This document shows, piece after piece, positions 26,830-61,864 of a stretch of 64,000 nt of DNA. The notes under the pieces were generated by a model. It searched no databases, had not been told where the DNA came from, and saw only the letters and a program-made list of their open reading frames with translations. Each line of letters opens with the position of its first letter. The stretch's first letter is position 1. Both the position numbers and the translations under genes were made by a program. This stretch comes from Blepharisma japonicum (lineage: Eukaryota; Ciliophora; Heterotrichea; Heterotrichida; Blepharismidae), in the NCBI GenBank assembly GCA_949751835.1, contig CATKHK010000034.1, positions 186,001 through 250,000 on the forward strand, written 5' to 3'.

Positions 26830-28848
26830 ATGGATATTCCAGTTATTTTGCAGAATCTCAAAGATTATCATCACAGAGCTATGGAGAGGGATGAAATTCA
26901 AAATTTTCGAGAAGATGTGATATCCCTTATAAATGAATCAGCAGAAAAAGGGCTTTTTAATTGTACTAAGAATAAAGAAGATTATATACAGAACATTTAC
27001 ACTAAAAAGTTAAATACATTACTTCCATTAGCAAGAAACCAAAAATTAGATTTATTTGGCTTACTTGCTAAGCATTTGGACTCTATAAGAGTAATTGTGA
27101 ACATTCCGACGACTCTGCTAAGAATTGAAAATATTTCTGTTCCATTTTTGATCCAAACTTTAAAAAATGGGGCAGTTGTATCAAGGCCGTGTCTTGATAA
27201 TGATTTTTTCAAGCTAAATCAGAGAAAAGCTGATGAAAATGGTCCAATTATTTGCTATAAAGCTAAAAATAAAGAAACTTTAATACTAAACGCGGTTGAA
27301 AGTGCTCAAGCAATTTGAAAATCAACCAAAACCTCAGCAATGCTACAATATTACATTCAAAGTTATTCAAATCCTGCTTCTATCACCAGGGTGCTTTGAA
27401 AAATTGGATACAAGCTTAAATTTTATACTATTATCAACCGTTCCAAAGTAAAAAACAAAACTAAAGCCGAATCCACCAATAGCACTCCTAAAAGGATAGT
27501 CCGACGAATGAATCGAGCAGCCTCAATCTCTCCAAATGTAACGCCCTCTAAAATGCTGTCTAAGCTGACTCAGTCAATAGTCAGAAAAAATCCTGCTGAG
27601 TTTCCTGATCTTAATGATATCCATGAAGAAAAGACTGAAATATTAGGAAATGACAGCTCATTAAAGTTAGGCGAGGAAAACGAAAAAAATAGCCCGGATT
27701 TATCATTATCAAAAGAATTCATTGTAAATTCTAAAGCTCCTGATAGCTGCTTTGGAGTTGAAAATAAAGGGAGAATCCCAGAAATCGAAGCAATGGTTTC
27801 TGAAGTCATTTCATTTTTAAATACCAAAGTATTTAGAGATGATGGAATAAAAGGAATCGTACTTGATTTTATACAGGATAAAAATAGGAATTGGGTGCTT
27901 ATAGATTGCAAAGAGTATTCGCTGATATATAAGTTGACATTAGATGCGAATATTATTGAAGAGCGAAAATCGACTCCATCAATATCTACTAGAAGCAGGT
28001 CATGCGACTTAAAAAAATCTAACACTAAAATTGATGTTGACAAAAAAGATCTAGATACAAGCTTTTTTATATTTAAAGAACACAAAGAAAAATCAAATGA
28101 GCTGCCTTTTAAAATTAGAGCCAAGCCAAAAGAGTATTTTAAGCATGAAGTGCAGGAAAAAGATCTGATGGAGCGAATAAGTAAAGTTAATGCACGAATT
28201 GACCGTATTGTTAGCCATAAGCCTTCTATAAGCCTAACGTCAATGGACTTAAAAGAGCAAAGTATACAAGCATATAAGATAAGATATAATTCTCGACCTT
28301 TGCTTTCCCCAATTCCTTCTAATAGCCCATTGCTATGCCCCCAAAAAACCACCCAAAAAATTGAGAACGCTTCCTTTATAAGGGATTCTTTAAATAATGA
28401 CAAAAATCATCTCTGCATAAGAAAGCACTATAAAACAGTAATAGATAACCTCGATGAAGCAAAATTCAATACAAAATTATCAAAAGTAAACAAAAATCTT
28501 CTAGAGAAGTACGGAGGAGAACAATTTTGGAATCAGTTTATCCTATCTCTATACAATAAAATATTAGCTAACGAAGCCTTGACTAAATATTTCAAGTCAA
28601 CAAAGCTAGATACCTTTGCAATGATCATGAACGGAATGCTTATGATTTTTAATGGAATGGTGAATTTAGAATTCAGGAGAGCTATTCGGTCATCTCATCA
28701 AAGAATGGGGATAACTGACCGTGAGTTCGAATATTATGCTGATATCTTTGAAGGGACTTTAATCGAATTTCAGCTTGAAGATGTTGACAGACAGCTCATC
28801 ATGTCTCAAATTAAATCAATGAAATGTCTAATAACTAAAAATATATAA
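26830..28848 (+). CDS. Truncated-hemoglobin fusion protein, array gene 1 (subfamily A)
   Basis: First of 14 tandem paralogues; 672 residues with TGA read as Trp at two places. Family architecture: (a) N-terminal block, residues 1-200, starting PVILQNLKDYHHRAMERDEI and including NIPTTL (about 90) and SITRVLW (about 184); (b) a block around residues 230-250, usually SINNP, here divergent (TQSIVRKNPAEF); (c) a block of about 70 residues with DSCFGVE (about 304), FLNTK and IVLDFIQDKNRNWVLIDCKE (about 342-361); (d) a linker with LPFKIRAKPKE, RISKVNARID and KEQSIQAYKIRY, ending near LLCPQ (about 502); (e) a truncated globin, residues 555-672, with LEKYGGEQFWNQF, LYNKILANE and proximal-type His623 in RSSHQRMGIT. 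Blocks a-c match nothing I know. The C-terminus is MKCLITKNI. Confidence 0.85.
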
Positions 28849-29150
28849 TTATAGTTAAGAGTATGATGTAGCATATAAAATAGAAAAACATTATTATATC
28901 ATTGAGATAATTAGCTCAAATATGGATAGTATCATTTAAAAAATTAAAAACTTAATTTATATATCAATTTGACGTCAAATTCGTTAATTAAGGAATTCAA
29001 AATGAAAGAAAATAATTCATTTTTGGTTCCATATTTGATGAAAACTGATTACTGAATAATTATAAGAAAGGCAAAAAATAATTATTTTTCTCTTTACTGT
29101 AAAATAATTGCGCATAAAACTGGCAATTTTTATTTATCTGATAAAATAAA
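28849..29150. other. Intergenic spacer between array genes 1 and 2
   Basis: 302 bases, AT-rich, no gene seen. It contains a perfect 16-base palindrome at 28966-28981, described as a separate entry. Confidence 0.5.
28966..28981. promoter_or_regulatory. Perfect palindrome with a CRE-type core upstream of array gene 2
   Basis: AATTTGACGTCAAATT reads the same on both strands over all 16 bases. Its core, TGACGTCA, is the full cAMP-response-element site bound by CREB/ATF bZIP dimers in other eukaryotes. It sits 169 bases before the start of array gene 2. I see it once in the window. Use as an operator is inference. Confidence 0.35.
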
Positions 29151-31211
29151 ATGGATTTGCCTGTGACTCTGGAGAGCTTAAATGTTTTCCACCAAAAAGC
29201 GATGGAGGAAGATGAAATTCAAAGTTTTCAGGAAGATTTAGTTTCAATGATAAAAGATTCAAAACAAAAAGGCCACTTCAAAGGGCTTCGTAGTGAGTCT
29301 GAATACTTGCAGAGTCTCAATACGAAAAAAATAAACAGCTTGCTACCAAACAATTTATTCAAAAGAAAGTTGGATATTTTCGAAACATTTGTAAAACACT
29401 TCGATCTCAATAACCTTGACGTAAATATCCCTACTACTCTTATGAGGACGGAAAACCTGCCTGTCTGTTTTCTAATTCGCACAATAAAAAATGGAAAAGT
29501 GGCTTCCAGACCGTGTTATGAGAATGAATTTTTTGAGATGGAAAAAGAAAGATTTAAAGAAACGAATGCAGGTGCACCTTTATATGCATATAAAACCCCG
29601 AATACAGAAGTTAATGTTATGTGCTCTATAGAGCATGCTCAAAGTATATGGAAATCTTCAAAAGAGCCTGCAAGACTCCAGAAATTTGTTAAAAGCTTAT
29701 CAAACCCACCATCGATCACAAGAGTGTTGTGGGTAGAAGGGTCAAAAAATAAATATTTTTCAATAATAAACAATAAGAAGCTCAAATGAGATATAAAAAA
29801 TGACAGCAAGCTTGGACCTAATAGGCAGCAAGGCGCTAGAAAGCGCACATTATCTAATTTTGAGTACAGAAAAATGTTAAAACAAACTTCTCAATCTATA
29901 AACAATCCATTTAAAATAAAAACTATTGAGAAAAAGAAAAAAAATAGAATCCCTTCTCTCTCCCAATCATTTTGTCAAATTCCTGTTGATGATTCAATTT
30001 TTCCCACCCAAGAAACAAAGAGCGAAGCATCTAAATGGCTTAAAGATGACTCCTTTGCCGATTTTCTGGTCGACTCAAAAAAAATTGAAAAATGCTGTGT
30101 TGTTGAAAGCAGAGGAAAATATGAAGAAATTTGCACAATGGTATCTCAAATAATTGATTTTTTAAATAAACAAGTGTTTAAGGAAGATAATGTTAAAGGA
30201 ATTGTGCTCGATTTTATATTGAATAATGAGAGGAAATGGGTCTTGCTTAAATGCAAAGAATTTTCAAATAGCTATAATACAAGCTTGGAATCAAACTGCA
30301 CTATAAGCAATACATGGGAGAAAAAAAGATATATAAGAAAAGAAAGAAGCCAATCAAATGATTTTTCCCGGGATTTGAAGCTAAAAACCTTAAAACTAGA
30401 AACATTAGAAGTAGAACCAAGCATAAAAAACGAAGAAACTCAAAGCACTTTAGCTGAAAGCTATAAAACTAAGCCTAGGCATCGACTCACTCCAATAGAT
30501 TTATCAGAAAAAAATATTTTTGAGAGATGCTCTAAAGTAAATGAAAGAATTGATAAAATTGTAAGCCACCAGAGTGAGTTAAACCTTAGCTCACATTTTA
30601 CCGAATCTCAAAGCAATCCAGCCTATGAAGCAAGAATAAGCCCTCAATCGTGCTCAATTTGGAACCCATCAATATCTAAACTTAAATGCCCATTTTATAA
30701 GAAAGCGACAATTGAGAGCAGCCACTCGTCAAATAATTCAGAAGGTTCATTTAATGAAAAAGTTGATGCCTATACAAGAAATCACATTAACAATATGATT
30801 GACAGTTTAGATGAATTGAATTTAAATGCACAGATTGCGAAAGTGAAAAACGAAAAACTTGTGGAAAAATATGGAGGAGACGCATTTTGAAATAAGTTTA
30901 TACTCTCACTTTACAATAAAATCCTTGCAAATGAGCTTCTTAGTAAATATTTTAAAAGCTCTAAGCTTGAAAATTTTGCAATGATAGTGGATGGAATGTT
31001 TGAACTTTTTAATGGAAATGTAACTCTCGCTTTTAGGAGAAAAGTAAGAGCTTCCCATCAATTTATGGGATTGTTGGAAAAAGAGTTTAATTTCTACGTA
31101 GATATTTTCGAGGACACATTAAATGAATTTCAGGTAACTGATATTGATAAGAATATTGTGATGACACAAATTAGGTCAATGAAATGCTTGATATGTAGGC
31201 AAAGCTCTTAA
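29151..31211 (+). CDS. Truncated-hemoglobin fusion protein, array gene 2 (subfamily A)
   Basis: 686 residues; TGA codes for Trp twice, once at the conserved Trp that follows GGDAF in the globin domain. N-terminal block starts PVTLESLNVFHQKAMEEDEI; NIPTTL is at about 91 and SITRVLWVEG at about 188. SINNPFKIKT is at about 248. The middle block has CCVVESRGKYEE (about 313) and GIVLDFILNNERKWVLLKCKE (from about 351, here split by reading as IVLDFILNN and KWVLLKCKE). The linker has RCSKVNERID (about 458) and LKCPF (about 512). The globin domain covers 568-686 with proximal-type His636 in RASHQFMGLL, where GI is replaced by GL. The tail keeps the Cys pair, KCLICRQ. It is the nearest neighbour of gene 1 in type and position. 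Confidence 0.85.
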
Positions 31212-31673: not shown

Positions 31674-33665
31674 ATGGAAGAGCTCAAATCTTGCACAGAC
31701 CCTTTCTCATTGGCAAATGGCAGAGCCTCGTTTATAAATTTACCTCAAAAAGTCAATGAGATGTACAGTAAAGGGCTTAGCAATCTTCCGAAACTATTTA
31801 ATAGCAAACCAATTGATATTTATAGTCTATTTGCCTTATACTCTACCTCAAAGAGCTTTAATGTAAATATACCGACAACATTTATTAAGGCTGAGGATTT
31901 AGAGCATACTTGCATGCTTAGGACTAAAACTAATGGCATTCTTCACTGTAGGCCATGTGGGGTAAATGATTTTTTTGATTTAAATCGAAAAAATAAAAAG
32001 CATGAAGCGCAAATTTATTTGTACAAATCACTGTATAGAGAAAGCATTGTTTTCCATTCTAAAGAAAGTGCAGAAGCTTTTTGGAAATCTTCCAAAGATT
32101 CTTCAGCAGTTGTCCAGCATTACGTAAAATGCATTTCTTCACAAGTATCACTCACAAGAGTCTTGTGAAGATCAGGAAAAACGAAATATTTTAATATTAT
32201 CAGTTGTGAAAAACCTGTAATTAGATCACAAGATATTCAAAAAAGGACTGCATGTCCTTCATCTTCCTTCAAAAGGAAAAAAACACAGTCAATTGATTTT
32301 CGATACACTAATTTAATTCTCAAAACTTCAATGTCTATTAACAACCCATACAAAATCAACGCAGCGTCAAAATCAAGCCTTAAAGAAAGGCCAAAATTAA
32401 CAAATTCTTTTTCAGAAGCAAATATAGATGACTCAAGCTTTATGGTTAGAAAAACCAGATCTGATGACCCATCAATTTTTGCTTTTAAAGCCAAGCAAAA
32501 TCAAAAATATATTCTCAATAAAAATAACCCAGAAAGTTTTATCGTTGTAGAGAATAAAAATAAGATACCTGAAATAGAAGCAATGATAAGCGAAATCATT
32601 GAATTTTTGAATGCTTATATTTTCAAAGAGGAAGACTTAAAAGGCGCGATTTTTGAATTTGTCAACGATCAAGATAATAAATGAGTTTTTCTTAATTGCA
32701 AAGAAATCAGCTTAAACAGCAAGCTGTTGCCTGAGGTAGATAATCTTAAAAGATATGAACCAAATAGTAAGAAACGGCGAAGTAAGTCATTTGTGATGTT
32801 GAAAAGTTATGAAAATAAGACATATTCGCCAATGTGTGCAGATGCAGACTCTAAACAAGCTGTTATAACTACTGAAGATCAAGTAAAGTGTCCTTTTAGG
32901 ATTAGAACTAGTCCAAAGCACCACCATACTTCGGGGCATAGATCAGAAAAAGAACTAATAGAAAGATGCAATAAAGTCAACGAAAAAATTGACCAAATAG
33001 TAAATTTAAATCCGCTAAACTACTTAAGAGATGTAGACTTTAAAGAGCAAAGTATAAAAGCTTATCAGGCTAGATTTCAGCTTGAAAGCTACTCGTTTTT
33101 TGCATCTCAAAATAAAGAAGAAGGAAGTGTAAGAACAACAGAAGCTTCATCTCCTTCAAAAATAGAAAGTTGGTCCCCTGTCAAAACAGAGCCTATCACA
33201 AATGCAGTTTTTACTGATAAAATGCTTGACCACACTCGAAAATTCATATCAGAAGGGATTAACCATTTAGACGAAATGAGAATGAATACAGAACTTCTAA
33301 AGATAAAACGGCATAATATTGTTGGAAAATATGGAGGAGATGAATTTTGAAGTATGTTTATAGATTCTCTTTATCGAAAAATCTTAAGCTTTGAATCACT
33401 GAAGGCTTATTTTAAAACTTCATGCATGAAAATGATAGCAGATGGGATGTTTAAGATCTTTAATGGATGTGCCACACTTGAATTTCGAAGAAATGTGAGA
33501 TCTGCTCACAATTCTTTGGGGATAAGTGAGAGCAATTTTTCATTGTATATTAAATTGTTTGAAGACACTCTAGTTGAGTTTAATGTAGGGGAAGAAGATA
33601 AGCAAATGATAATGTCGCAAATCAAGTCGATGAAGTGTTTAATTTGCAGACAAACAGTCCTTTAA
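31674..33665 (+). CDS. Truncated-hemoglobin fusion protein, array gene 3 (subfamily B)
   Basis: 663 residues, three TGA-Trp codons including GGDEFW. It has the shorter subfamily B N-terminus: the PxILxxLKDxH leader is missing and the shared block begins near LPKLFNSKPIDIYSLFALYS; NIPTTF is at about 64. SINNPYKINA is at about 219. In the middle block the SCYAIE core is replaced by SFIVVE (about 287), and the second half is weaker (FEFVNDQDNKWVFLNCKE). The linker starts KCPFRIRTSPK (about 406), so a Cys-Pro pair replaces the LPFKI of other members; RCNKVNEKIDQIV follows. The globin domain runs from about 548, with subfamily B wording FNGCATLEFRR and proximal-type His612 in RSAHNSLGIS. The tail is KCLICRQTVL. 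Confidence 0.85.
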
Positions 33666-34335: not shown

Positions 34336-36255
34336 ATGGACGAGCTCAAAAAAAGCACAGAAAATTTTATGGTGCCGATCTCCAGATGCTCTATAAGGAG
34401 TTCCACAAATATTTGCAAAAATCCAGTCAATAATACTAAGAAAAACCTTGACATCTTACCTAAACTGACGAATGGGAAGAAGATTAATATTTTTACTTTA
34501 TTTGCGCTATATTCAAATTCCCGAGAGCTCAATATAAATTTGCCAACAACTTTAATAAAATCAGACGATTTACCAATCCCATGCTTGCTATGAACAAAAA
34601 GTAATGGAATACTTTGCTCACGATTTTGCAAAGACAATGAATTTTTTATATTTTCCCACAAAAATAAAAATTGTGAAGGACACACTTATTTATATAAGCG
34701 CTTTGATAAAGAAAGTATCATTCTCAACTCTAAAGAAGCTGCTGAGTCACTATGAAATTCTTCCATCGATTCCACCGCAATGATTCAAACTTATATAGAA
34801 TCCCCATCAAACCCTAAGTCAATTGTTAGAGTTTTATGAAGATCTGGCATAAAATCAAAATATTTTACAATAATTAACAGAATTCATGTGATAAATAATT
34901 TGAGTGAAACCCAAAGAAAAATTTCGGCAACACCAAGCTTGTACCAGAGAAAAAAGAGTTTAGATTTTAAGTACACAGATATGATTCTCAAAACATCTAG
35001 ATCTATCAATAATCCATATAAAGTGAGTAGATTTTCGAGGACTATGAGGAGAGAAAAAACAAGGTCTGATAAAATGATTACAACTAAAAACAAAGATGAA
35101 AAACACATAGACGTAAGAGAGTTTCAGCTACAGGATCAAAATAATATGATTGTGGACCCAAAGAAAACAGATAATATCTTAGTTTTAGAAGACTCAATTA
35201 AAGGACCAGAGCTAGATCCAATAGTTGACCAAATTGTGGCATTTTTAAATTCTAATGTATATAAAGAAGAAGAAATTAATGGAATAGTTTTAGATTTCGT
35301 TCTTTGCAAAATGCAGAAATGAGTTTTATTAGACTGCAAAGAAATTTCTGTAGGAAGATGCAAAACTCCTTTTGAAAATGGCAAAAAAGTAGAATTAAAG
35401 CCTTTAAGTAAAAGGCGGACTAGCTCATATGGAGAAGTTTTGATACTTGAAAGCCAAAGAAGTACCCCAAAACCTGATACCAAAATCAATAAAATTCCAT
35501 CAACTCAAATAAATCTTGGCTGCCCTTTTACAACTAAATCAACCCCAAAACTCATCCTAACTTCAGCAAGCGAAAAAGATTTGTTTGACAGATGAAATCA
35601 AGTCAATGAAAGGCTTGGAAAAATTGTAAGCTTAAAGCCATCATATATAAAAGACACAAAAGAGCAAAGCATAAAAGCTTATCAGACAAGATATAATGCA
35701 AGGCATGCGACAGTCATAGAGCCAGCAACGCCTTCTTTAGAAACAGATTCAAGTCCATTGACATCCAATACACAACCTACATCAAATCCGCTATGGGATA
35801 ACGAAAATCAACATATTCATAGGTGCTTTGCAGATATTATTGGAAGAATTGATGAAATGAACATGAATACAGAGCTTTTAAAGGTTAAACACCAAAATTT
35901 AGTAGGAAAGTATGGCGGAGATGATTTTTGGAACCGATTTATTCGGTCTTTATATAAGAAAATTATGTCAGATGAATCTAGCCTACATAAGTATTTTGTT
36001 AATTCTCACTTGGACATGATTATTGGAGGGATGTTTAAGGTATTTAATGGGTGTGCCACTTTAGAATTTAGGAGAAAAATTAAAGCTGCACATGAATTTA
36101 TGGGAATTAGTGATAAAGATTTCAATCTTTATTCCGATTTCTTCGAAAGTACATTGAATGAATTCGAAATTGAAGAGGAAGACAAAAGAGTCATTATGAC
36201 GCAAATTAGATCTATGAGGTGTCTCATCTGTAGATATCCCCAGATAGGCTCATAA
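34336..36255 (+). CDS. Truncated-hemoglobin fusion protein, array gene 4 (subfamily B)
   Basis: 639 residues, the shortest member, with five TGA-Trp codons that split it into small open pieces under the standard code. The subfamily B N-terminus leads into LPKLTNGKKINIFTLFALYS and NLPTTL (about 68). SINNPYKVSR is at about 222. The middle block is degenerate at its front (ILVLEDSIKGPELDPI, about 280) but ends normally (GIVLDFVLCKMQKWVLLDCKE is read as IVLDFVLCKMQKW and VLLDCKE). The linker has GCPFTTKS (about 395), RWNQVNERLG with Trp in place of the usual Cys, and KEQSIKAYQTRY. The globin domain runs from about 520 with GGDDFWNRF (TGG here), FNGCATLEFRR and proximal-type His586 in KAAHEFMGIS. 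The tail is RCLICRYPQ. Confidence 0.85.
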
Positions 36256-36528: not shown

Positions 36529-38601
36529 ATGGAAGTTCCTAAGATCCTAGAGAACCTAAATGATATTCATCAAAACGAGGAGGAAGAAAGTAATTATAGA
36601 GTTATTGGTGAGGAACTAAGATCAATTTATAATCAATCATCAAAGCCTGGCTTTATGAGATCTGTATATAGAGTTGTTTCACAAGTACCTGAGCACGGCC
36701 AAAACTGTTTTATTAGCAAACTGAATAATTTACTACCAAAAGCTTCTCTAAATAAAAGATTGAACTTATTTTCTTTGCTTGCAAAGAACCAAACGACAAT
36801 CAAGCTTAGCATCCCTACCACACTTTTAAGACTTGAAGGTAGAGAAAAACCATATTTGCTTCAAACAAGAAGAGACGGATTTTTGCAAATAAAAATCTGT
36901 CATGAAGAAGAATTTTTTGTCCACAAACATAAAATGAATAATGAAAATTTTCCATTAAATTGCGGTAAAATCCAAGGCAAAGAATTAGCGTTATATTTCA
37001 CAAAGGAACAATCAGAAAAATTTTGAAATTCGAATAAAGAAGAATGTTACTTGCAGAATTTTATTCAAGGAAAGTCAAATCCTACATCTATAACCCGGGT
37101 ATTGTGAAGGGAAGGGATGAAAAATAGATATTTCACAATCATAAATCGTAAGATGATTAATGAAAAAGAGAAAAAGAGTCCAAATAAAAAGGCTAATGGG
37201 CATAAAAGAAATAACTCATTTACTAGCATGGCTGAATTTAAATATACAAATTTTATGTTCCCAACTTCAAAGTCTATCAATAATCCCTTCAAACTAAGTA
37301 AAAGAATTGGAAGAGATAAATCAAATTCATTCAATCTTGATATAGAAAAAAGTCCTATATCTGACAGCAGTCTGCATACAAGCTTAGATGTAGAAAAGAA
37401 TTCCAGCGATATTGATTACACTGATCACTGGATTTCTCCACAAACTATAAGCCTATTAAAAGATGAGCTTAATAAAGAATTTATTGTCTCAACCAAAAAC
37501 ACTGAGAGTTGCTGCGCAATAGAAACATTTATCAAAATCAACGAAATAGAATCAATGATAGATCAGATTATTAATTTTTTAAATACATTGGTTTTTCGGC
37601 AATATAATATCAAAGGAATCGTCTTAGATTTTATGCAAGACAAATCTAATTCGTGGATTCTACTAAACTGCAAAGAATACACAAGTGGCTCAAAAATCAA
37701 CCTAGAAGTCAAAAATCTCAACCAACGTAGAAAATCCCAAAAATCAACAAACAGATCACAATCTCTTGAATTTTCAAATATAGAAGAAGAGGTTGAAAAA
37801 AGAAAACCAGCCAAAGTAAAATTAAAAGCACATTATGATGATTCTCAAGAAAGTAAAAAAAATCTACCATTTAAAATTAAATTAAGAAGACCTGCTGTTG
37901 AGAAAACTTTAATGATGAGTGAAAAAGAATTGCTAGAAAGATGCAATAAAGTAAATGAAAAATTAGATAAAATATTGACTCAAGGTCAATCAGAATGATT
38001 AAGAACGTTTAACCCTAAAGAAGAAAGCATCCAAAACTACAAAACTATGTATAATTTTTGTAAAACTCCTCAAGTAGACTCAAAAATTAAAAGCTGAAAT
38101 CGCATTCAAAGTGAGCATGAAAAAGAAACCCAGCCAAAAGAAACATTTTGGGATGATAAAAAACAAATTTTTACACGAAAATGCATTATGGATAATGTCG
38201 ATAATATTGATGAAATGGCCATGAATGTACAGATATCCAGAATTAAAAAACAAAATTTGGTTAAGAAATACGGCGGAGATGAATTTTGAAACCAATTTAT
38301 AATATCACTTTATAGTAAAATTCTTCAAAATGCTAATTTGAGAACAAGATTTAAGATGACGCGCGCTGACAATTTTGAGATGATTGCTACAGGAATGTTT
38401 AAAATATTTGATGGAGATGTTTCATTAGAATTTAGAAGAAAAGTAAGGTCAATTCACCAAAATATGAGTATTACAGCAGTCGAGTTTAATTCCTATGTAA
38501 ATTTATTCAACGCTACAATTTTAGAATTTGATATTGACAGCGAAGATCAGCAAATAATTATGGCTCAAATAAATTCCATGAAGGGGTTAGTATGCAGATA
38601 A
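36529..38601 (+). CDS. Truncated-hemoglobin fusion protein, array gene 5 (subfamily A)
   Basis: 690 residues, five TGA-Trp codons. The N-terminal leader is PKILENLNDIHQNEEEESN, more acidic than in other A members. SIPTTL is at about 93, ITRVLW at about 187 and SINNPFKLSK at about 249. The middle block is well kept: SCCAIETFIKINEIE (about 326) and IVLDFMQDKSNSWILLNCKE (about 363). The linker has LPFKIKLRRP and RCNKVNEKLD (about 470) but no Cys-Pro pair. The globin domain runs from about 576 with GGDEFWNQF (TGA Trp) and proximal-type His643 in RSIHQNMSIT, where the usual Gly after the HQNM stretch is Ser. The tail has only the second Cys of the usual pair (KGLVCR). Confidence 0.85.
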
Positions 38602-48640: not shown

Positions 48641-50728
48641 ATGGAAAACACAGTCTTTATCGAGCGCCTTAAAAGTTCTCATCAGAATGCCTTAGAGGAT
48701 TATGACAATATTGAGTTTAAGGTGGATTTACTAGCACTTATTCATAACTCAACTAAAAAGGGATTATTGAACCCAAGCAATAAAAGTTTTTCTTACAGTA
48801 ATCCTTACCTTGAAAAATCAGTAGGAAAGTTAAATAGCTTACTTCCAAAAGGATCAAAGAGCTTCAAACTCAATATTTTTGAGTCAATAGTAAGAAACTT
48901 AAAATGCAGCAGTCTTAGCCTAAATTTACCAACTAGTCTTATACGACTTGAAAACTGCTTAAAACCATATTTAATACAAACAAATTCTTCAGGAAAAGTT
49001 CTTTTCAAAGAAAGCAACGATCATGAATTTTTTAGTATTTTTAACACAAAATCTAGCACAGATGTATCTATCTTTTGCTATAAAATTCCGTATAAAGGCT
49101 TTGTTTCAATATATAGTAAAGATGAAACTGAGTCAGCTTGAAAATCATCAATAGAAGAATGCGATATAATACAAGAGTTTATTAAATGCAGGACTAACCA
49201 AATATCAATTACTAGAGTTCTATGAAGACTTGGGCAGCCAACAAAATATTTTACTATAATAAAAAGAAATAAAATAAAAAGCCGCCCAAGAATCAATCCA
49301 AGAATAAATCAAAACAGCAATAAATTTCATAGGAAAAGTTCCTCATCTGAATATTCAAATTTCAAATACACAGATTTTCTTCAAAAAACATCACAGTCAA
49401 TTAATAATCCTTTCAAAGTCCAGCAAAGAGGACAAAAAAGGAGCAAGTCCTTAGTTGTTAGTCAGTCAAGAAAGGAAAAAAAAGAACAAAAAGAAGGAAC
49501 AATAAGCCAAACTCAATTTTTAAATGACAATAATACACTAGAAGAAATCAGTAATGAAATAGAAAACGAAAGCAATCTAATTTTGACAACTGAAAAGCCT
49601 GAAGATTGCTTTACATTTGATTATAAAGTTAAAACTACAGAAATTGAAGGAATGATTTCTCAGTTAGTCGATTTTTTAAATAATAAGGTATTGGTAAATA
49701 AAGAAATTTCCGGAATCGTACTTGACTTTATACAAAGCAAAGACAAAAAGTGATTTCTGCTTGATTGCAAAGAGTGCTCTATTGAAAGTAAAGACAAAGA
49801 AGGATTAAAAAGAAAAAATTCTAAAATTATCCATCACCAAAGAACACAGAGTTATCCAGAGTTAAAAATTAATATTTTGGAAGAAAACGAATCAAAACAG
49901 AGCGATTTCATTCATAAAATAGACAATTTGCCAAATGATGCTTTTAGAAATATCAAATCAAGGCAGCTTTCTTTGAAAAAGGCAAAAGTTTGCCCGGCTA
50001 TTGAAATTTCAGAATCCATTGAAAATGATTTATTTAAAAGATGCTCTCAAGTATCAGAAAAAATTGATAAGATTATTAAAACAAATCATCTTCCTCCAAT
50101 CTCCAATTATTTAGTTAAAGACCAATGCATTAACATTTACAATGATCGTATAAATTCAAATTCTCAAAAGTCAAAATCACAGATCCCAAGTCCTAATGAT
50201 TTGGATTATTTAAAACCTTCATTTCCTTGTTTGCAACACAATTTATTATCAAGGCACAGAGCTCAAAGAAATAAACCTCTATGAAACGATGAAAGCCACG
50301 CCTTCACCAAAAAGCACTATTACGACATTGTAGAGTTGTATGATGAAATGAAATTAAATTCCAAAAGCACTTCTTCGAACCAAAATTTCGTTTCCAAATA
50401 TGGAGGAGACGAGTTTTGAAATAAATTTGTTATAAAGCTATTTCAAAAGTTAATTTCAGAAAGCAAATTAAATAAGCGTTTTGCGAATTCGAATCAAAAA
50501 ATGATTTTATCAGGACTTCATAAAGTTTTCAGTGGAAATGTGTCTCTTGAGTTTAGGAGGTCTATAAGAACAATTCATCAAAATTTAGGAATTTCAGAAG
50601 AAGAATTTAATTTGTTTCTTGATAAGATGGAAGAAGCACTTGACGAGTTTCGAATAGAGGAAAATGATAAAGTTTTCATTATGTCACAAATCAGATCAAT
50701 GATGTGTTTGGTATGCAAATCACATTAA
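48641..50728 (+). CDS. Truncated-hemoglobin fusion protein, array gene 10 (subfamily A)
   Basis: 695 residues, five TGA-Trp codons. I start it at the ATG of MENTVFIERLKSSHQNALED, which aligns with the A-type leader; the frame is open upstream to 48605, but without an ATG. NLPTSL is at about 95, ITRVLW at about 189 and SINNPFKVQQ at about 252. The middle block begins DCFTFDYKVKTTEIEGM (about 322) and continues IVLDFIQSKDKKWFLLDCKE. The linker has VCPAIEIS (about 451) before RCSQVSEKID (about 466), so the Cys-Pro pair lies upstream of its usual place. The globin domain from about 582 has KYGGDEFWNKF (TGA), an altered helix B (LFQKLISES, Phe in place of Tyr) and proximal-type His646 in RTIHQNLGIS. 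The tail is CLVCKSH. Confidence 0.85.
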
Positions 50729-51599: not shown

Positions 51600-53720
51600 A
51601 TGGAAACGATGGAATTGCCAGTGATTTTGAAAGACTTGAAAAATGAGAGTTTTCTTAAGGAAATTTCCATCTTCCAAGAAGATATAGATAATTTTATACT
51701 TGATTCAGTGAAGAAAGGTATTTTAAAAGGTGTAAAAATAGACGGGATAAGCAATCCTATATCAAGCCAAAACTGTTATATTAAGAGAATAAATAGTTTG
51801 CTTCCGAAGGCTAATGCTAAAATTAGCTTATATAAATTATTGGCAATGCATGCAAATGATTTTAAATGTCAAGTAAATATTCCAGCAACCCTTCTAAAAT
51901 TAGGAAAAATGGATATTCAGTCACATTTAATTTTTACAAATGGACATGGACAGGTGTCTGTAAAAAAATGTGATGAAAAAGAATATTTTGATTTTAAAAA
52001 AGAAAAATGCAATAAAACCTTTCCATTGTGTTGCTTAAAACATGAAAATGAAGACATAACTTCAATATTTTCTAGAGACTCAGCAATTTCAGAATGGAAG
52101 AAAGCTTCAGATAAATCAATAATGCAACAATTCATAGAACTTAAATCCAATCCCACAACAATAGTAAGAGTCTTATGGAGGAAAAATATGAAAAACAAAT
52201 ATTTCATTATTATAAATAAAAATAAATACCCTATACAACGTTCAAATACCTCGAGCAGTCAATTTCCACTCTTTCGCGGGCGAAGAAGATCAAATACCGA
52301 TGTAACTGAATATGATGAAAAGCTGCACAAAATTGATAATAATTTCCAAGCACCTTCTCATGCTAGAAATAGATCCCATTCAGATGCATCCGATTTTAAA
52401 AGCATTCAAATCAAAAAAAGAAGATTAAGTTATGCTCCATATCCAGGTATAAAATTAATGAATGTCCAACACTCCCATTCCAATTTTTCTCCTTCAAAGA
52501 TTAAAAAAGACTTCAAAAGAGCTGATTCAAATGATTCCAATGAAAGAATTTCTCCAAAGAAAGATGTTTTGCCTCAAATAAATGTAGCATCAGGTGTAAT
52601 AAAAGAAGAAGAAAACAGGAAATATTTTGTTATCACTAAAGACACTGAAAGTTGCTATGCGATAGAGAGCTATAAAAAATCGCCAGAAATTGAAGGTATG
52701 ATTAATCAGATTGTTGCTTTCTTGAATTCCTGCGCTTTTAGCAGTAAGAATCAACTTAAAGGGATAGTGGCTGATTTTATACAGGATTCAGAAAACAAAT
52801 GGGTATTATTGGATTGCAAAGATTGTTTAACTGAAGCAAATTTAAATATAAATCTCACAAAACTGCAGAAACTAGAGTCAACAAAAAGATCAAAATCTAC
52901 ACAGAATTTGCTAATCACAGCTGAAGCGAATTCGACTGGTAATAATATCCACAAACCTGATGTAATTTTTAGAAATCCAAATTTAAATAAAGGAACTTCG
53001 AAAAAAAATACATTAAGGAATGAAACTTGTAAAATTGATCTAATAGATTTAGGCCCTACAAAAATAACCGATAAAGAAGAAATCAATGAATCTCAAGTAG
53101 ATACAGATGAAACCCCGAATAGGAAAAATTCAGAATACACAACAAGTCCTCATGAAAATATCCAAAATAACGCTATTTTATACGGAGCGCAGTTCTTTTC
53201 ACCTATCTTCAAGCTTAAAAATGATTCTTCTCCAGAATGCCAGTCTCAGAGTAAATGTCTATGGAAAGATAATAATTATAGTCATATTCGAAAACACTAT
53301 GTAAATATTGTCAGCAATTTTGATGAAATGGTGACAAGTGTCAAAGTTGCCAAAAAGAAGCAAGAAAATTTAGTAGAAAAATATGGAGGAACAGATTTTT
53401 GGAATCAATTTATACTGTCTTTCTATAGAAAAGTGCTGTCAACTGAAATGCTTAAAAGGCACTTTAAAAATACGAATTTAGAAAATTTTGGAAAAATTGT
53501 TTCTGGGATGTTTAGAATTCTTTCAGGAAGTGTAAACCTCGAATTTCGACGAAAGATACGGGCTGTTCATTCCAATATGAATATTGGGATTACTGAGAGC
53601 GAATTTGATTGCTTTGCTGACATTTTTGTCAATACTTTGAATGATTTCAATGTATCAGAAGAAGATAGGAGTCTGATTATGATTCAAGTAAAGTCTATGA
53701 AGAGGCTAGTTGCTAGATAA
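51600..53720 (+). CDS. Truncated-hemoglobin fusion protein, array gene 11 (subfamily A, outlier)
   Basis: 706 residues, the longest member and the only one without a TGA codon; all its Trp codons are TGG. The leader PVILKDLKNESFLKEISIFQ is A-like. NIPATL is at about 92 and IVRVLWRKN at about 186. The SINNP block is missing, replaced by a basic, Ser/Asn-rich stretch. The middle block is intact: SCYAIESYKKSPEIEGM (about 351) and IVADFIQDSENKWVLLDCKD. The linker lacks LPFKI, the RCxKVNEKID motif and KEQSIKAY, and there is no Cys-Pro pair. The globin domain from about 588 has KYGGTDFWNQF, FYRKVLSTE and proximal-type His657. Two extra residues follow the His (HSNMNIGIT), lengthening the F-G corner. 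The tail is KRLVAR, without Cys. Confidence 0.85.
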   Translation: METMELPVILKDLKNESFLKEISIFQEDIDNFILDSVKKGILKGVKIDGISNPISSQNCYIKRINSLLPKANAKISLYKLLAMHANDFKCQVNIPATLLKLGKMDIQSHLIFTNGHGQVSVKKCDEKEYFDFKKEKCNKTFPLCCLKHENEDITSIFSRDSAISEWKKASDKSIMQQFIELKSNPTTIVRVLWRKNMKNKYFIIINKNKYPIQRSNTSSSQFPLFRGRRRSNTDVTEYDEKLHKIDNNFQAPSHARNRSHSDASDFKSIQIKKRRLSYAPYPGIKLMNVQHSHSNFSPSKIKKDFKRADSNDSNERISPKKDVLPQINVASGVIKEEENRKYFVITKDTESCYAIESYKKSPEIEGMINQIVAFLNSCAFSSKNQLKGIVADFIQDSENKWVLLDCKDCLTEANLNINLTKLQKLESTKRSKSTQNLLITAEANSTGNNIHKPDVIFRNPNLNKGTSKKNTLRNETCKIDLIDLGPTKITDKEEINESQVDTDETPNRKNSEYTTSPHENIQNNAILYGAQFFSPIFKLKNDSSPECQSQSKCLWKDNNYSHIRKHYVNIVSNFDEMVTSVKVAKKKQENLVEKYGGTDFWNQFILSFYRKVLSTEMLKRHFKNTNLENFGKIVSGMFRILSGSVNLEFRRKIRAVHSNMNIGITESEFDCFADIFVNTLNDFNVSEEDRSLIMIQVKSMKRLVAR

Positions 53721-54280: not shown

Positions 54281-56323
54281 ATGGAAATCAATTACCTTAT
54301 ATTTAACAAGATTTTGTATACAATGGAGCCAGTCATTTCTATTCGTGGAGCCAAAGAAGGAATTGAAAAATCAGAGAGTGAAGACCAAATTTCTTTATGC
54401 TCAGCAAGCACGTCAAGCATTAGCCCCATTAAATCCTTCTTCAGAAATTCATCCCAAGCATCTAAAAGTTCTTCTTTTACTAATTCATTACCGAAACTTT
54501 TTAACGGCAGCCAACTTGATTTTTATAGTTTACTTACAGTCTACTCAAATATTAGCGGTTTAAATATTCGCATTCCTAATAGCGTGATTAGAGATGGAAA
54601 AACCCAGCTTAATCATATGCTATGGACTAAGAAAAATGGTCAAGTTTGCTCAAAACCGTGCCTCGAGTCTGAATTTTTCGTCCTCAGCCAAAATAAAATT
54701 GAAGAGAATATTCCTATTTTCTGCTGTAAAGGATTTACCAAAGAAACAGAATTTGTTTATTCAGTAGAAACCGCTGAAAAAATCTGAAAATTTTCCCATA
54801 ATGAAGCAATAATGATGCAAAACTTTATATGCCCTCATTCCAACCCAGCATCTATAACAAGAGTTCTTTGGAAATTTGGGAGAAAAAATAAATATTTTTC
54901 TATTATAAGTAGATTAAAGCAAGCTCCAGTTAAACGAAGCAAAAAAAGAAATACCCAGACATGAAGCCAAAGCCCAGGGAAAAGTAATTCATTTTACCTT
55001 TCTAGCTTCAGATACACCGATATGATGCTGAAGACAACAAAATCTCTTAATAATCCATACCGTATTAAAGCTGTACAAAAGCCAATCAAGAAAAGCAGTT
55101 TTTCTTTTAGCAATAAAATGAGTGAGAATTTAATGGGGACAAGATCTGAAACTTTTATTCAGAGTGAAAAATCTCCTAAAAGCTTCTTTGTAAATACCAA
55201 ATCAGTTGAAGATTATTTCGTAATCGAAAATAAACCAAAAATTCAAGAAATTGATGACATGGTCGACCAAATTGTATCATTTTTGAATCATTATTTTTGC
55301 AAAGAGGAAAAGCTAAAAGGCCTGATTTTAGATTTTATTCTGAATAAAGACAGAAAATGGGTTTTCTTATCTTGCAAAGAATATACAACCAGCAATAGCT
55401 CTCCAATAGAATACTGCAATCAGAGAATCAGGCAATCAAAAACAGTTACTCCTAGTAGAATAAGATCATACTCTGAAAACAGCCAAGAAATAATGAAAGA
55501 AGACTCGAATGAAAGCATCGACCGCCCATTAGAGTCAATGAGATGTGTAACACCAAGTATTGATGTTAACTTGCCTTTTAAAGTTAAACGCAACCCAAAA
55601 CAAAACCGGACAATGATGATTGGGTGTGATAAAGATTTGTTGGAGAGATGCACCAAAGTAAATCAAAAAATTGATTATTTGGTAAATCTTAAACCAGTAA
55701 AACAGCTAAAAAGCGTTGATTTCAAAGAGGAAAGCATAAAAGCGTATCAAATGAGATATAACCTTAATGCTTATGCAACTTTTGATCAAACTCCTAAGGC
55801 TCCTAACTATCATGAGTCTTTACAGACACTGTGCCCAGTATTTAATCAAAAAAGTGGCAGAGGTACCAAAAATTCGTTGGCTGCTTCAAAAGTCAATGAC
55901 CATGCTAAAAGACATTTGGCGGAAACAAGCGATTCTCTTGATGAAATGAAGATGCAGTGCGATTTGATGAAAGTTAAAAAGAAAGAGCTTATACAAAGAT
56001 ATGGAGGGGATGAATTTTGAAATAAATTTATTATATCGCTTTATAAAAAGCTGATCGCAAATAACTCATTGAGCAAGTATTTTTTGTGTGCAAGTATGAA
56101 TATGATTATACAAGGCATGTTTAAAGTTTTTAATGGAAATACTACATTAGAATTTAGAAGGTCTGTAAGATCTATCCATCAAAATCTTAAAATCCCAGAG
56201 AAGGATTTTGATTGCTATGCGAATATATTTTATAGCACTTTGAAAGAATTTGAGATTGAGGAAGAAGACCGGCAAATAATTATGACGCAAATTAGATCTA
56301 TGAAATGCTTGATATGCAAGTAA
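54281..56323 (+). CDS. Truncated-hemoglobin fusion protein, array gene 12 (subfamily B)
   Basis: 680 residues from the first ATG. A second in-frame ATG at 54323 (MEPVISIRGAKEG) would give 666 residues and a leader of more usual length for subfamily B; I cannot choose between them from the sequence. Three TGA-Trp codons. The shared block begins LPKLFNGSQLDFYSLLTVYS, with RIPNSV in place of NIPTTL (about 96). ITRVLWKFG and SLNNPYRIKA (about 254) follow. Middle block: DYFVIENKPKIQEIDDM (about 309) and LILDFILNKDRKWVFLSCKE. Linker: LPFKVKRNPK (about 430), RCTKVNQKIDYLV, KEESIKAYQMRY and LCPVFNQ (about 517). The globin domain from about 569 has RYGGDEFW (TGA), FNGNTTLEFRR and proximal-type His633 in RSIHQNLKIP. 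The tail is KCLICK. Confidence 0.85.
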
Positions 56324-56618: not shown

Positions 56619-58706
56619 ATGGAAGTACCCATAATCCTGCAGCACCTTAAAGACTACCACCAGAGTACAATTGAAAGAGATGAAATAACCAATATAAGAG
56701 CAGACATAATCACCTTTATACACGATTTTTCCAAGAAAGTAGGATTAAGAAGCGCTTATCTTGGCAATCGGCTTTGTCCTGATAGCAATTCAAATTGCTA
56801 TATTTTAAAGCTTAACAATTTGCTTCCAAAATCCGAGTTCAGTCCAAGGTTAAAGCTATTTTCCTTATTGGCAAAATTTTCTAGTAAACTGAAAATTAAT
56901 GTCAACATTCCTACAACTCTAATAAAGGTCGAAGAAGTTCCATATATAATCCATACCAAAAAAGAAGGAAGCATACAATCAAAGGCTTGCATAAGTGAAG
57001 ATTTTTTGCATCTAACACAGAAGAAAAACGACTCCAGCTGTCCATTATTTTGCTATAAAGTTCCTGGGCAGGACACAATAGCTGTTTTTACCATTGAAAG
57101 TGCGGAAAAGTTATGAAACAATTCAGAAGACAACGCCTTCATGCAGCAGTATATTTTAGGTCGATCCAATACTATATGTATTACTAGAGTTTTGTGGAAG
57201 CAAGGATTTAAGAACAAGTATTATAATATTGTCAATAGAACAAAGCAAGAAATGAAATCTCAAAATAACTCCTTGAAAACAAAAAAACCAACCCATAAGA
57301 AATCGAATTCAACAATAAATATATCTGATTTTCAGTATAGAAATATGATGTTACCTACTACTCAATCATTAAATAATCCATATAAGGTTAGAAAATGCCG
57401 AACTCCTTTAAAGCGAAAAACTTCTGGAAATAATTCATTTTCAGAGTTCCCAAAACAAGATCTAAGAAGCTGTCCTAGTGGAAATGTATCTCCGCTAATG
57501 ACAGTAAAAGATGAGGAAAGCTTATATCAGAGACGCAACTTAACTGAAGAACTTTCAAGAATAATAGGAGAAGGAAGTTATAAAGAGTTTATTGTCACCA
57601 CCAAAGACTCAGATAGCTGCTATGCTATCGAAACACTAGTAAAAATCCCAGAAATTGAAAATATGGTTACTCAAATTGTCCAGTTTTTAAATACTGAAAT
57701 ATTCAAAAACTCTCTTCAGGCTATCGTTCTTGATTTTCTTCAAGACAGAAATAATATCTGATATCTTCTTGACTGCAAAGAATATTTAGCAGATACTAAT
57801 ACAGGAATGGAGAAGAAAAAAATCAATATCCCAAGTTTACATAAGTCCAAAAGAAGCAGATCTCTCGTAATACGCAAGAGAAATACCTTATTTGAGGAAA
57901 ATGAAGAAATCAAAATAGAAGATTCTTCTTCTAAAGAAGTCTTAATTGAAGAAGAGAAAAAATTAGAGCTTCCAAAATTCAAAATAAAACCCAAAATTAT
58001 CACAAATGATAAGCCTCATATAAATAATGAAAAAGAATTGGTTCAAAGATGTGCAGAAGTTAATGAAAAAGTGGACCAAATTATTTCAAACAAAAAAATG
58101 ATAAGAGCTTCTTCATCAAATTTAATCCAAAGCGAAAGCTCACGTGCATTCCCTATTAATACACAGTTTTCTCATCAAAGTGAGTCACAAAATTCAAGCC
58201 CTATTTCCCCTCTCTACAAAAAAAGAACCCAAACAAATATAAAAGAATCATTATGGGATGATAAATGCCATTATATGACAAAAAAGCATTATTCAGATAT
58301 TGTGGATAATTTTGATGAGATGACCCTTAATACACAAATAGCTAAGATGAGAAAACAAAATTTAGTGGAGAAGTATGGAGGTGATGAGTTTTGGAACAGC
58401 TTTATTTTATCATTTTATAACAAAGTTTTAGCAAGTGAAGTTTTGTATAACCATTTTAAAGGCTGTAAGCTAGAAAATTTTGAAATGATCGTCACAGGAA
58501 TGTTTAAGATTTTCAATTGTAACGTGAGCTTGGAGTTTAGAAGAAAAGTCAGAGGGTCACATCTTAATAGAGGAATCAATGAAATTCAGTACAATTCATA
58601 TTCGGAGCTCTTTGAGAAGACATTGATGGAGTTTGAAGTAGATGAAGACGATAGGTATGTCATAATGAAGCAGATTAAATCAATGAAGTGCTTAATATGC
58701 AGATAA
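56619..58706 (+). CDS. Truncated-hemoglobin fusion protein, array gene 13 (subfamily A)
   Basis: 695 residues, two TGA-Trp codons. It is one of the best-preserved A members and a good reference for the family. Leader PIILQHLKDYHQSTIERDEI, NIPTTL (about 96), ITRVLWKQG (about 187), SLNNPYKVRK (about 249). Middle block SCYAIETLVKIPEIENM (about 332) and IVLDFLQDRNNIWYLLDCKE. The linker has LPKFKIKPK, an altered form of LPFKI, and RCAEVNEKVD (about 476). It has no Cys-Pro pair before the globin, although RLCPD and SSCPLF occur in the N-terminal block. The globin domain from about 582 has KYGGDEFWNSF (TGG), FYNKVLASE and proximal-type His648 in RGSHLNRGIN. The tail is KCLICR. Confidence 0.85.
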
Positions 58707-58854
58707 TGTATAAAAATTTTAGTTATTTATTCAAAAATACGTTGTTTGGCTAGATTCATGATAAATTACACTGCTGGTTTCATTTAAAAATTGCATAGTA
58801 ATTCTGCAATATTAGATTGAAATTAATATAGAAAAGAGATATTTAATTGCTGCA

Positions 58855-59404: not shown

Positions 59405-59764
59405 ATATCTTAGGTACATAACTAAGTTAAAAACATTTTGTAGTCTAAACCTTTATTATAATTTAATTAGGGAATGCAAAATTAAATATTGTGAATAGTC
59501 TATCCCCAATTATATCTCAGGTGAAATCTTTCAGCTGCTCTAAATATTGATTAGTTTTATATTATAATTATTCTGGATCGCGAAATAAGCTTGCTTGCAA
59601 TCGTTACTTTAGCTTAAGCAATATAATTTCAATTAAATATCACTCTTATTTATTAAGAAATCACAAAACTTCTTAATTAATAATTCAACTTATCTTAATT
59701 TGCTGGGCTACTGAACATTAACTCAATTAAAAAAACTAGAAAAATCCTATAAAAATTAAATAAA
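59405..59764. other. AT-rich spacer before array gene 14
   Basis: 360 bases, AT-rich, no gene, no palindrome seen. Together with the two small candidate genes to its left, this makes the longest interruption (58707-59764) between neighbouring array members. Confidence 0.5.
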
Positions 59765-61864
59765 ATGCAAGTTTCAGGTATATTAGAGGACTTAAAGGAT
59801 TACCACAAAAATGCTATGGAAAGAGATGAGATTACAAACTTCAGAGAGGATTTATTATCCTTAATCCACGATTCATACAAAAAAGGCTACCTTAGAGGAG
59901 TCGGTAAGCATAATATTTCTGTCGCTGATTTTACACAAAATAACTATGTGACCAAAATAAATAGTCTATTACCCAAACAGTCTCAAATTATCCGATTTAA
60001 TATTTTTTCTTTGATGGCAAAGATTAATTCAGGGCAAAAAATAAATATAAATATTCCTTTGACTCTTATTAGAAATGATGAGTCATCTTGCTCATACTTA
60101 GTACAAACTCTTCCAGATGGCTCAGTTCAGTCAAAGCCACTTATAAATAAGAGTGAGTTTTTTGATTGCATTAAAAATAAAGAAGATGTAGAATACCCAT
60201 CTTTTGTTTACCGAGTCCACAATAAAGATACTATTTTAGCATTTTCAGGGGAAAGTGCAGAGGAGATTTGGAATTCTTTTGATGGGCAAGCTATTATGCA
60301 GAGATATATTAATTGCAGGTCGAATCCTGTATCAATAATAAGAGTACTATGAAAAAAAGATACAAAAAATCGTTATTTTTCAATTGTGAATAAAAACAAA
60401 TATAGCAATAGTTGAGTACAAAACCGAGCTAGATATAAGAAAGGGATAAATAACAGAAATAAGTCATCCAGCAATTTATCAGATTTTAAGTACACAAATA
60501 TGCTACTTCCAACGACTCAATCAATTAATAATCCTTTCAAACTTAAAAAAAAATCAGGAAGTTGCTCAAAACTACCCAGATTATCAAAGTCCTTTTTAAG
60601 CATCCCAAAGCATGAATGTGATGCTGGACCGAAGAGATTTTCACTATCTCAATCCTTTTCTGAAATTCCTAAAGATGAAAAAGACACTGTCTCAAACAGA
60701 AACCCAGAAAGTATTACTAGGGTTCATATCTTTCAAGAAGAGTCTAACAAAGATCTGATAATAAACACAAATGACTCAGAAAGCTGCTATGCAGTAGAAA
60801 CATTTATGAAAATCCCTGAAGTTGATGCTATGATAAACCAAATTATTAGCTTTCTTACAACTGATATTTTTCCACACCAGGCTGTAAAAGGAATAGTTTG
60901 TGATTTCATTCAAAGCAAAAAAAATGGCTGAGTGTTTTTAGGCTGCAGAGAACAGTTCATTGACTTCAAATTTCCATTGGATATTGAAAAAGTGATACGA
61001 CCTCAACAAAAGCTTGATTTTTCAAGGAGGTCTCATTCTGTGGGCTCAACTTCAAGATTAAATGATGTTGAAGGTGAGCACAGAATTTCTCGACAGGAGA
61101 CTAAAAAGGTTAATATTGAACAAGATAAGTCAATTAATACCCCTTTGCCTTTTAAAGTGAAACCACAGAGGCAAAATAAAAAAGAAAAACAACATCCAGG
61201 TGACGACAAAGATTTCGTGATGAGGGTTTCAAAGGTTAATGAAAGACTTGGCCAAATAAATATGCAGAAACCACCTGCTTGCTTAAAAAGCACAGATTTT
61301 AAGCAAGATCAAATCAAATATTACCAAAAACGCAATTCTATGCTAAGTCCACAATGCCCAGTCTTCAATAGCTATACAAGACAACCTACCAAAAATATGA
61401 TTCTATCAGGACTTGATGAAGAAAGCATAGCCTGCGCACAAAGAGCTCTTCGTGACGCAATTGACAATTTCGAAGAAATGGCTATGAATATGCAAATATC
61501 TAAAATTAAAAAGCAAAATTTAGTTGAGAAATACGGTGGAGTAGCATTTTGAAATCAGCTTATAGTGTCATTATACAATAAAATCCTTTCTAACGACACA
61601 TTAAATAGGTATTTCAAGAATACAAGAATGGCTGACTTTGAAATGATCGTTTCTGGGATGTTCAAAATTTTCAATGGAAAAATCAGTTTAGAGTTTCGAA
61701 GGGCTGTTAGAAAAAATCACCAAGGAAGAGGAATAACAGAAAAAGAATACTGATTTTATGTTGAGATATATGAAAGCACATTAAAAGAGTTCAATATAGA
61801 TGAAGAAGACCAAAAAAGTATCATGTCACAACTTAGGTCCATGAAAGGGCTTATAGTGAGATAA
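59765..61864 (+). CDS. Truncated-hemoglobin fusion protein, array gene 14 (subfamily A), last member
   Basis: 699 residues, five TGA-Trp codons, one of them within the globin domain after the proximal His (EKEYWFYVEI). Leader SGILEDLKDYHKNAMERDEI, NIPLTL (about 96), SIIRVLW (about 189), SINNPFKLKK (about 252). Middle block SCYAVETFMKIPEVDAM (about 339) and IVCDFIQSKKNGWVFLGCRE, with Arg in place of Lys at the end. Linker LPFKVKPQRQ (about 460), RVSKVNERLG, with Val for the usual Cys, and QCPVFNSY (about 529). The globin domain from about 585 has KYGGVAFWNQL (TGA), LYNKILSND and proximal-type His652 in RKNHQGRGIT. The tail is KGLIVR, without Cys. No further member follows on the right. Confidence 0.85.

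Follow-up and report, generated by a model that had tools for sequence, protein, structure and literature searches.

A tandem array of 14 Blepharisma japonicum genes predicted to join a truncated globin to a DC4-like core

Fourteen intact genes in tandem

A stretch of 64,000 nucleotides of the Blepharisma japonicum contig CATKHK010000034.1 (positions 186,001 to 250,000 of the forward strand; hereafter the window) contains an array of 14 intact open reading frames (ORFs) at window positions 26830-61864, all on the plus strand and encoding proteins of 639-706 amino acids (aa) when TGA is read as tryptophan. The C-terminal part of these proteins resembles a truncated globin, and the core is predicted to resemble DC4, a docking subunit of the trypanosomatid outer dynein arm (ODA). 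The ORFs begin with ATG and end with TAA in 12 genes and TAG in two, and the intergenic spacing is 132-1058 bp. The genes are listed below; coordinates of core pieces and globins are window positions, and the E-helix deletion, found in seven of the 14 copies, removes 3 aa.

g1, 26830..28848 (+): 672 aa; DC4-like core pieces 26995-27456 and 27721-27936; globin 28486-28845
g2, 29151..31211 (+): 686 aa; core pieces 29316-29789 and 30066-30281; globin 30849-31208
g3, 31674..33665 (+): 663 aa; core pieces 31761-32222 and 32511-32726; globin (E-helix deletion) 33309-33662
g4, 34336..36255 (+): 639 aa; core pieces 34435-34896 and 35149-35367; globin (E-helix deletion) 35890-36252; second AlphaFold2 (AF2) model
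g5, 36529..38601 (+): 690 aa; core pieces 36706-37164 and 37483-37698; globin 38248-38598
g6, 39105..41081 (+): 658 aa; core pieces 39204-39671 and 39957-40172; globin (E-helix deletion) 40725-41078
g7, 41444..43510 (+): 688 aa; core pieces 41552-42010 and 42296-42511; globin (E-helix deletion) 43139-43507
g8, 43643..45742 (+): 699 aa; core pieces 43820-44290 and 44630-44845 (sole copy with E-x-N at the putative metal site); globin 45380-45739
g9, 46162..48189 (+): 675 aa; core pieces 46315-46779 and 47047-47262; globin (E-helix deletion) 47842-48186; PF01152 24.0 bits, above the gathering cut-off
g10, 48641..50728 (+): 695 aa; core pieces 48815-49282 and 49580-49792; globin (E-helix deletion, B10 Phe) 50378-50725
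g11, 51600..53720 (+): 706 aa; no TGA codon; core pieces 51774-52235 and 52626-52844; globin 53361-53717; PF01152 23.9 bits, above the gathering cut-off
g12, 54281..56323 (+): 680 aa; core pieces 54461-54928 and 55187-55402; globin (E-helix deletion) 55979-56320
g13, 56619..58706 (+): 695 aa; core pieces 56796-57254 and 57591-57803; globin 58353-58703; first AF2 model
g14, 59765..61864 (+): 699 aa; core pieces 59942-60409 and 60758-60973; globin 61511-61861; PF01152 22.7 bits, above the gathering cut-off

A first-pass annotation of this DNA had described 14 same-strand, intact and intronless paralogues. The number, strand and lengths were confirmed, and the intactness depends on the genetic code. 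Under translation table 11 the sole full-length array ORF is g11, and the other 13 are broken because each contains 1-5 in-frame TGA codons. Tryptophan is encoded 42 times by TGA and 40 times by TGG, and at the four alignment columns with 13-14 tryptophans the two codons are about equally frequent (TGA/TGG 8/5, 8/6, 7/7 and 8/6). The reading of TGA as tryptophan is well supported for the array; readings with tables 11 and 6, which gave broken or chimeric ORFs, were dropped in its favor. In Blepharisma stoltei, UGA is reported to encode tryptophan and introns are predominantly 15 and 16 bp (PMC9942806). The term intronless fits the array genes because every ORF is open throughout, but GTA...AG 15-mers are present in 13 of the 14 ORFs and might formally include an in-frame 15-nt intron.

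Profiles of three conserved regions each matched exactly the 14 ORFs, and the same profiles found no 15th copy or fragment among the six-frame stretches of at least 25 aa of the window at E<=10. Pairwise identity among the proteins is 27-42%, and the mean column identity is 60% in the globin part versus 41% over the whole protein. The differences at codon positions 1, 2 and 3 are 0.48, 0.42 and 0.62 (0.35, 0.27 and 0.57 in the globin part); position 2 is the most conserved and position 3 the least, which shows constraint at the protein level. Judged by their sequences, the copies are old, constrained paralogues. An assembly duplication is ruled out by the pairwise identity, and an array of pseudogenes by the 14 open frames together with the codon-position constraint.

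The C-terminal domain resembles group 1 truncated globins

For domain searches, the globin was cut as the last 114-123 residues of each protein. A profile of the 14 domains matched best in the PDB to the group 1 truncated hemoglobin (trHb) of Tetrahymena (3aq5, E 8.9e-7). Of its 26 PDB matches at E<=10, all but two were truncated globins. The first-pass annotation had claimed a truncated globin and named PF01152 as the family to be expected. All 14 trimmed domains matched this family at E<=1 (worst 0.054), but only g9, g11 and g14 passed its gathering score. The match was limited to the last ~50 residues in g3, g5, g10 and g12, and another sub-threshold family (USH1C_N or DUF7353) outscored PF01152 in g6 and g12. 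With full-length proteins, PF01152 matched seven of the 14 and none passed the gathering score. It matched none of the ten reversed domains used as a control (10 of the 14 were reversed), and no globin family was found by NCBIfam at E<=1 among the 14 array proteins. Two AF2 models built on the 14-row array alignment were searched against the PDB with Foldseek, and both g13 and g4 matched trHb folds with a probability of 1.00 (template modelling (TM) score by target up to 0.80 and 0.72), in agreement with the 2/2 fold that had been anticipated. The assignment of the C-terminal domains as group 1-like truncated (2/2) globins is thus supported by both the profile and the predicted fold, in line with a 2006 census reporting only 2/2 globins in ciliates (PMC1457004).

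Aligned with the Tetrahymena trHb, the array globins keep the Gly-Gly and the proximal F8 His in all 14 copies, the B10 Tyr in 13 (Phe in g10) and the second Phe of the CD region in 13 (Tyr in g7). These residues are named here F8, B10, CD1 and Gly-Gly before helix B, with the B10, E7 and E11 numbering taken from the titles of PDB mutant entries. An orientation of the F8 His towards a heme-sized pocket is read from this alignment. In the sub-type with a full-length E helix, the segment from the Gly-Gly to the F8 His aligns without gaps in six of seven copies, and g11 has one 2-aa insert directly after the F8 His. The Gly-Gly, Tyr and proximal His of the first-pass motif set were found, whereas the distal pocket is unlike that of the Tetrahymena globin. 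Several features weigh against a standard pocket: the E7 Gln of Tetrahymena is Phe in seven copies and deleted in the other seven, and E11 is non-polar in 13 and His in g8. Polar residues at E7 and E11 (Gln46 and Gln50 in Tetrahymena) were thus not found in the array; they are common in group 1 truncated globins without being defining for a globin. Identity to the Tetrahymena trHb is 13.7-26.5%. These changes suggest that the ligand chemistry may differ, or that heme may be absent in some copies.

Some further observations concern the globin end of the proteins. A Cys-x-x-Cys motif (CLIC or CLVC) lies close to the C-terminus, past the last globin helix, in eight of the 14 proteins (for example at the end of g13, 58703) and is a possible redox or lipid-attachment site. 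The best match of the g13 model in the viral structure library BFVD was a globin of the giant virus Edafosvirus (A0A3G4ZUD7, E 2.2e-3), and no match was found there at E<=0.001.

The core has a predicted DC4-like, ATP-grasp-like fold

About 550 residues of each protein lie outside the globin and had been annotated as unknown domains. The models replace this description with one of a DC4-like, ATP-grasp-like core and disordered linkers, which is what these residues look like. The core consists of two conserved stretches joined by a disordered loop; the linkers are disordered with a predicted helix between them, and a predicted lead-in helix precedes the globin. The g13 model has a mean predicted local distance difference test (pLDDT) value of 60, with ten-residue block means of 64-92 in residues 61-210, 321-390 and 581-695, except for 58 at 131-140, and values mostly <50 in the linkers. 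The top three Foldseek matches of g13 were 9y6s_5K (7.9e-9) and 9e78_5K (1.3e-8), both from Leishmania, and 9e5c_7c (3.4e-7). The first two chains are named ODA dDC4 and distal DC4, and the third is a chain of the Trypanosoma brucei axoneme. They were followed by trHbs (1dly, 1.4e-3, probability 1.00) and then by TTL and the D-Ala-D-Ala ligase Ddl at ~2e-2. The model of g4, which belongs to the deletion sub-type (mean pLDDT 61.6), retrieved the same three chains on top (3.8e-9, 6.8e-9 and 9.3e-8); below them came ATP-grasp enzymes, the best at 7.2e-4, and THB1 of Chlamydomonas (2.1e-3). In both models the matches to DC4-type folds are 4-6 orders of magnitude stronger than those to other ATP-grasp proteins.

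Several points count against a DC4-like core. Both models were built from one set of 14 sequences, so that neither is an independent check of the other; their mean pLDDT is 60-62 and the predicted TM (pTM) score is 0.41. The superposition on DC4 is loose (TM score by target 0.43-0.61, root-mean-square deviation 6.7-14.6), and the structural alignments with DC4 have 10-16% identity. The best PDB sequence match is also dDC4, with an E of 0.24 for the N-terminal profile, which agrees weakly along the 'LQkFI...SviRVvW' stretch, and 0.37 for the whole-core profile. However, this similarity is not significant (E 0.24-1.5 across the profiles, 1.5 for the full-length one), and the unrelated chain 1g61 follows closely behind dDC4 for the N-terminal profile (E 0.48). 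The middle core piece alone matched no DC4 among the PDB sequences; its best match, a designed helical repeat (E 0.034), is not convincing. A made-up peptide composed from motifs also matched dDC4 first (E 0.74) but was not counted as evidence, having been written with the DC4 family in mind.

Assuming that the 'DFIQD..KWVLLDCKE' stretch forms the ATP-grasp metal site in the register that we assign to it, E-x-N occurs only in g8; the Asn position is Lys in 11 of the 14 proteins, and the first position is acidic in seven. The simplest reading is that the core is probably a catalytically degenerate pseudo-enzyme scaffold.

Cys-Pro dipeptides are over-represented in the array proteins, with 16 compared with 6.5 in shuffled sequences (one of 2000 shuffles reached as many). 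The sites lie in the linkers, for example at residue 513 of g2, 497 of g6, 512 of g9, 518 of g12 and 531 of g14, and nine of the 16 are followed by Phe, Tyr or Val. Cys-Pro is a known heme-regulatory motif, but this reading of the array dipeptides was judged too weak.

History of the family

The first-pass annotation had proposed a local expansion. Among the four pairs of sister genes of the full tree, three consist of neighbors, as expected from tandem duplication: g1/g2 (95/93), g3/g4 (67/86) and g6/g7 (75/85). The fourth pair, g8/g11 (94/87), is not adjacent. A weakly supported branch of this tree (60/28) separates all seven deletion copies from the rest, even though the two kinds are mixed along the chromosome. 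The deletion sub-type is again a single, weakly supported split in the globin tree (77/74), whereas the tree of the N-terminus plus core requires two changes of sub-type, with g10 grouping with the non-deletion type. With a median end branch of 0.41, compared with 0.88 for the N-terminus plus core, the globin evolves roughly half as fast. Because all 14 copies carry both parts, the fusion is most simply older than the 14-fold expansion.

A search of viral contigs with the globin alignment gave 16 pattern matches, none of which was confirmed. A genome contig search with the full alignment gave three pattern matches, again with none confirmed; these searches found no homologue outside the window.

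Proposed function and alternative explanations

The explanation that we prefer is a docking-type scaffold with a heme sensor that tunes ciliary beating, and as a whole we hold it with a little less than even confidence. Each gene would encode a chimera of an ATP-grasp-like, DC4-resembling core, disordered linkers and a C-terminal 2/2 globin; the combination of a globin with a DC4-like part is itself very probable. The core would act as a scaffold that binds other proteins and would plausibly be attached to the axoneme where the dynein arms sit. The globin would bind heme through its invariant proximal His and read O2, nitric oxide (NO) or the redox state. Ligand binding might shift the lead-in helix, altering the contact of the core with dynein or other partners, so that ciliary beating would be tuned. 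The 14 paralogues might set different responses or places, such as rows of cilia or proximal versus distal positions, comparable to the placement of pDC4 and dDC4 in trypanosomes. The structure of the genes, their array, the globin family membership by profile and the fold matches of the predicted models are established here, and from them we infer the loss of catalysis, heme binding, location, sensing and the effect on dynein.

The axonemal location of the array proteins is drawn by analogy from DC4 and is tentative, with the balance tipped somewhat against it. The cited structural work likens dDC4 to ATP-grasp proteins and places it on the dDC1/dDC2 coiled coil, in contact with the ODA alpha heavy chain; its loss slows swimming (PMC7617938). 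The heading of the DC4 section in that paper, 'Trypanosomatid-specific dynein-docking subunits', counts against the proposal, while DC4 orthologues are said to exist in several flagellate or motile ciliate species (PMC11971395). The placement at the cilium is helped by the reported links of cytoglobin, which acts on cilia through NO (PMC10721929), and androglobin (PMC13331133) to cilia. The relation to a docking scaffold is drawn from the fold comparison and the sensor from the conserved heme ligands; heme-based gas sensing at the axoneme is doubtful. Unlikely as we consider it, the dynein-docking apparatus might have built-in heme sensors, each of the 14 DC4-like docking proteins ending in a globin by which local dynein arms are adjusted to O2 or NO. 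Individual cilia or ciliary rows would then respond directly, without a diffusible messenger, and the two distal-pocket types would differ in ligand behavior.

The proteins may instead be cytosolic heme-based gas or redox sensors whose ATP-grasp-like core binds a nucleotide or a non-ciliary partner, with no role at the axoneme. Among the fold matches of the core are ATP-grasp enzymes of a general kind (TTL and Ddl for both models, RimK for g4), and free-standing ciliate globins are not known to be ciliary. Against this stand the wide gap between the DC4 matches and those to other ATP-grasp proteins and the best sequence lead in the PDB, which is also dDC4, though weak; we regard a purely cytosolic sensor as rather improbable. 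An active ATP-grasp ligase gated by the globin, for example a tubulin-modifying enzyme of the TTLL type, would agree with the fold matches to TTL in both models and to TTLL11 in g4 and with the E-x-N that g8 keeps at the expected site. The loss of this motif in the other 13 proteins, with Lys so often at the Asn position and an acidic first position in only half of them, makes such an enzyme very unlikely, provided that the register assigned to the motif is right, and DC4 ranks far above TTL among the folds.

The globin fold could instead serve as a structural or dimerization module without heme, at least in the seven deletion copies, and the proteins would then be pure scaffolds. The replaced or deleted E7 Gln, the mostly non-polar E11, the low identity to the Tetrahymena trHb and the weak Pfam scores, with three domains above the cut-off, all suit such a module. 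A heme-free domain would not need the F8 His, B10 Tyr and CD Phe, which are kept in 14, 13 and 13 copies in spite of the low overall identity, and the globin is more slowly evolving than the N-terminus plus core; we consider this unlikely. That the globin call itself is wrong, with an unrelated all-helical domain aligning by chance, is extremely unlikely and largely refuted. It would account for the 11 domains below the Pfam gathering score, the better sub-threshold family in two, the match restricted to the last residues in four and the NCBIfam result, but not for the profile match to trHbs, the failure of reversed domains to match, the two models with full probability or the near gap-free alignment to the Tetrahymena globin in the full-length sub-type.

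Comparison with known systems

The group 1 trHbs of Tetrahymena (3aq5), Chlamydomonas (THB1, 4xdi), C. eugametos (1dly) and Paramecium (1dlw) have in common with the array globins the Gly-Gly, B10 Tyr, CD Phe and F8 His, the profile and the predicted fold. In contrast to these free-standing proteins, the array globin is the C-terminal domain of a protein of ~680 aa and has altered E7 and E11 positions. DC4 (pDC4/dDC4; PDB 9e78 and 9y6s) is the best fold match of both models, but the word 'globin' is absent from the main text of PMC7617938 and PMC11971395, and the array has 14 copies. TTL and other ATP-grasp enzymes share the core fold with weaker matches, and the putative E-x-N is lost in 13 array proteins.

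Androglobin is likewise a large protein of several domains, one of them a globin, and is reported to be linked to cilia (PMC13331133). An identity with androglobin was rejected, as its calpain domain and circularly permuted globin were not found in the array proteins: no calpain or peptidase family was among the Pfam matches of the 14 proteins at E<=10 (weak matches can be filtered out), and the array globin profile is collinear with ordinary trHbs, in the normal order. A putative androglobin homologue of Tetrahymena is reported, as are androglobin models from basal unicellular species without a permuted globin (PMC13331133). Flavohemoglobins and globin-coupled sensors are also chimeric but have an N-terminal 3/3 globin (PMC1457004), whereas the array has a C-terminal 2/2 globin on a DC4-like core. 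In B. stoltei, one stably expressed 'bacteria-like globin protein' is mentioned (PMC9942806).

In the titles and abstract openings covered from open-licence PMC, no fusion of a 2/2 globin with a DC4-like part was found, and 'globin domain' combined with 'ATP-grasp' gave no paper. Functionally known chimeric globins are few, namely flavohemoglobins, globin-coupled sensors and androglobin. If the array proteins are axonemal, gas sensing would be physically tied to the ciliary motor, and they would offer a tractable case for why androglobin and cytoglobin are tied to cilia. The fused architecture is a hint, though no proof, of direct sensing of oxygen or nitric oxide by cilia. The ~550 residues once called unknown now have a testable structural hypothesis.

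Genomic context

The array is flanked on one side by a gene for a leucine-rich-repeat protein at 24772-26385 (+) and on the other by an ORF at 61993-62871 that none of the three array profiles matched. The GC content is ~0.27-0.39 in the window and near 0.3 over the array. Searches with Rfam (gathering thresholds) and for tRNAs found nothing in the window, and telomere-like words expected for the genus were not found in it; six scattered CCCCAAAA words are present. A gene at 23166-24209 contains the 15-nt intron GTAACTTTTACTCAG at 23243-23257 (+), the removal of which restores the frame of what we take to be an IBA57-like protein; Pfam gave no family for 23448-24206 of this gene at E<=0.01. 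Together, TGA read as tryptophan, the TAA and TAG stops, the GC content and this intron resemble the nuclear DNA of a ciliate; the code and the intron, a handy marker of the organism, make Blepharisma or a close heterotrich the likely source. At 14333-17890 (-) a protein of 1185 aa has WD40 propellers and a C-terminal part that resembles transmembrane segments by eye, and it is possibly a channel fused to WD repeats. Further upstream of the array, a kinesin gene at 5421-7796 (+) encodes a sub-threshold rootletin-like coiled coil.

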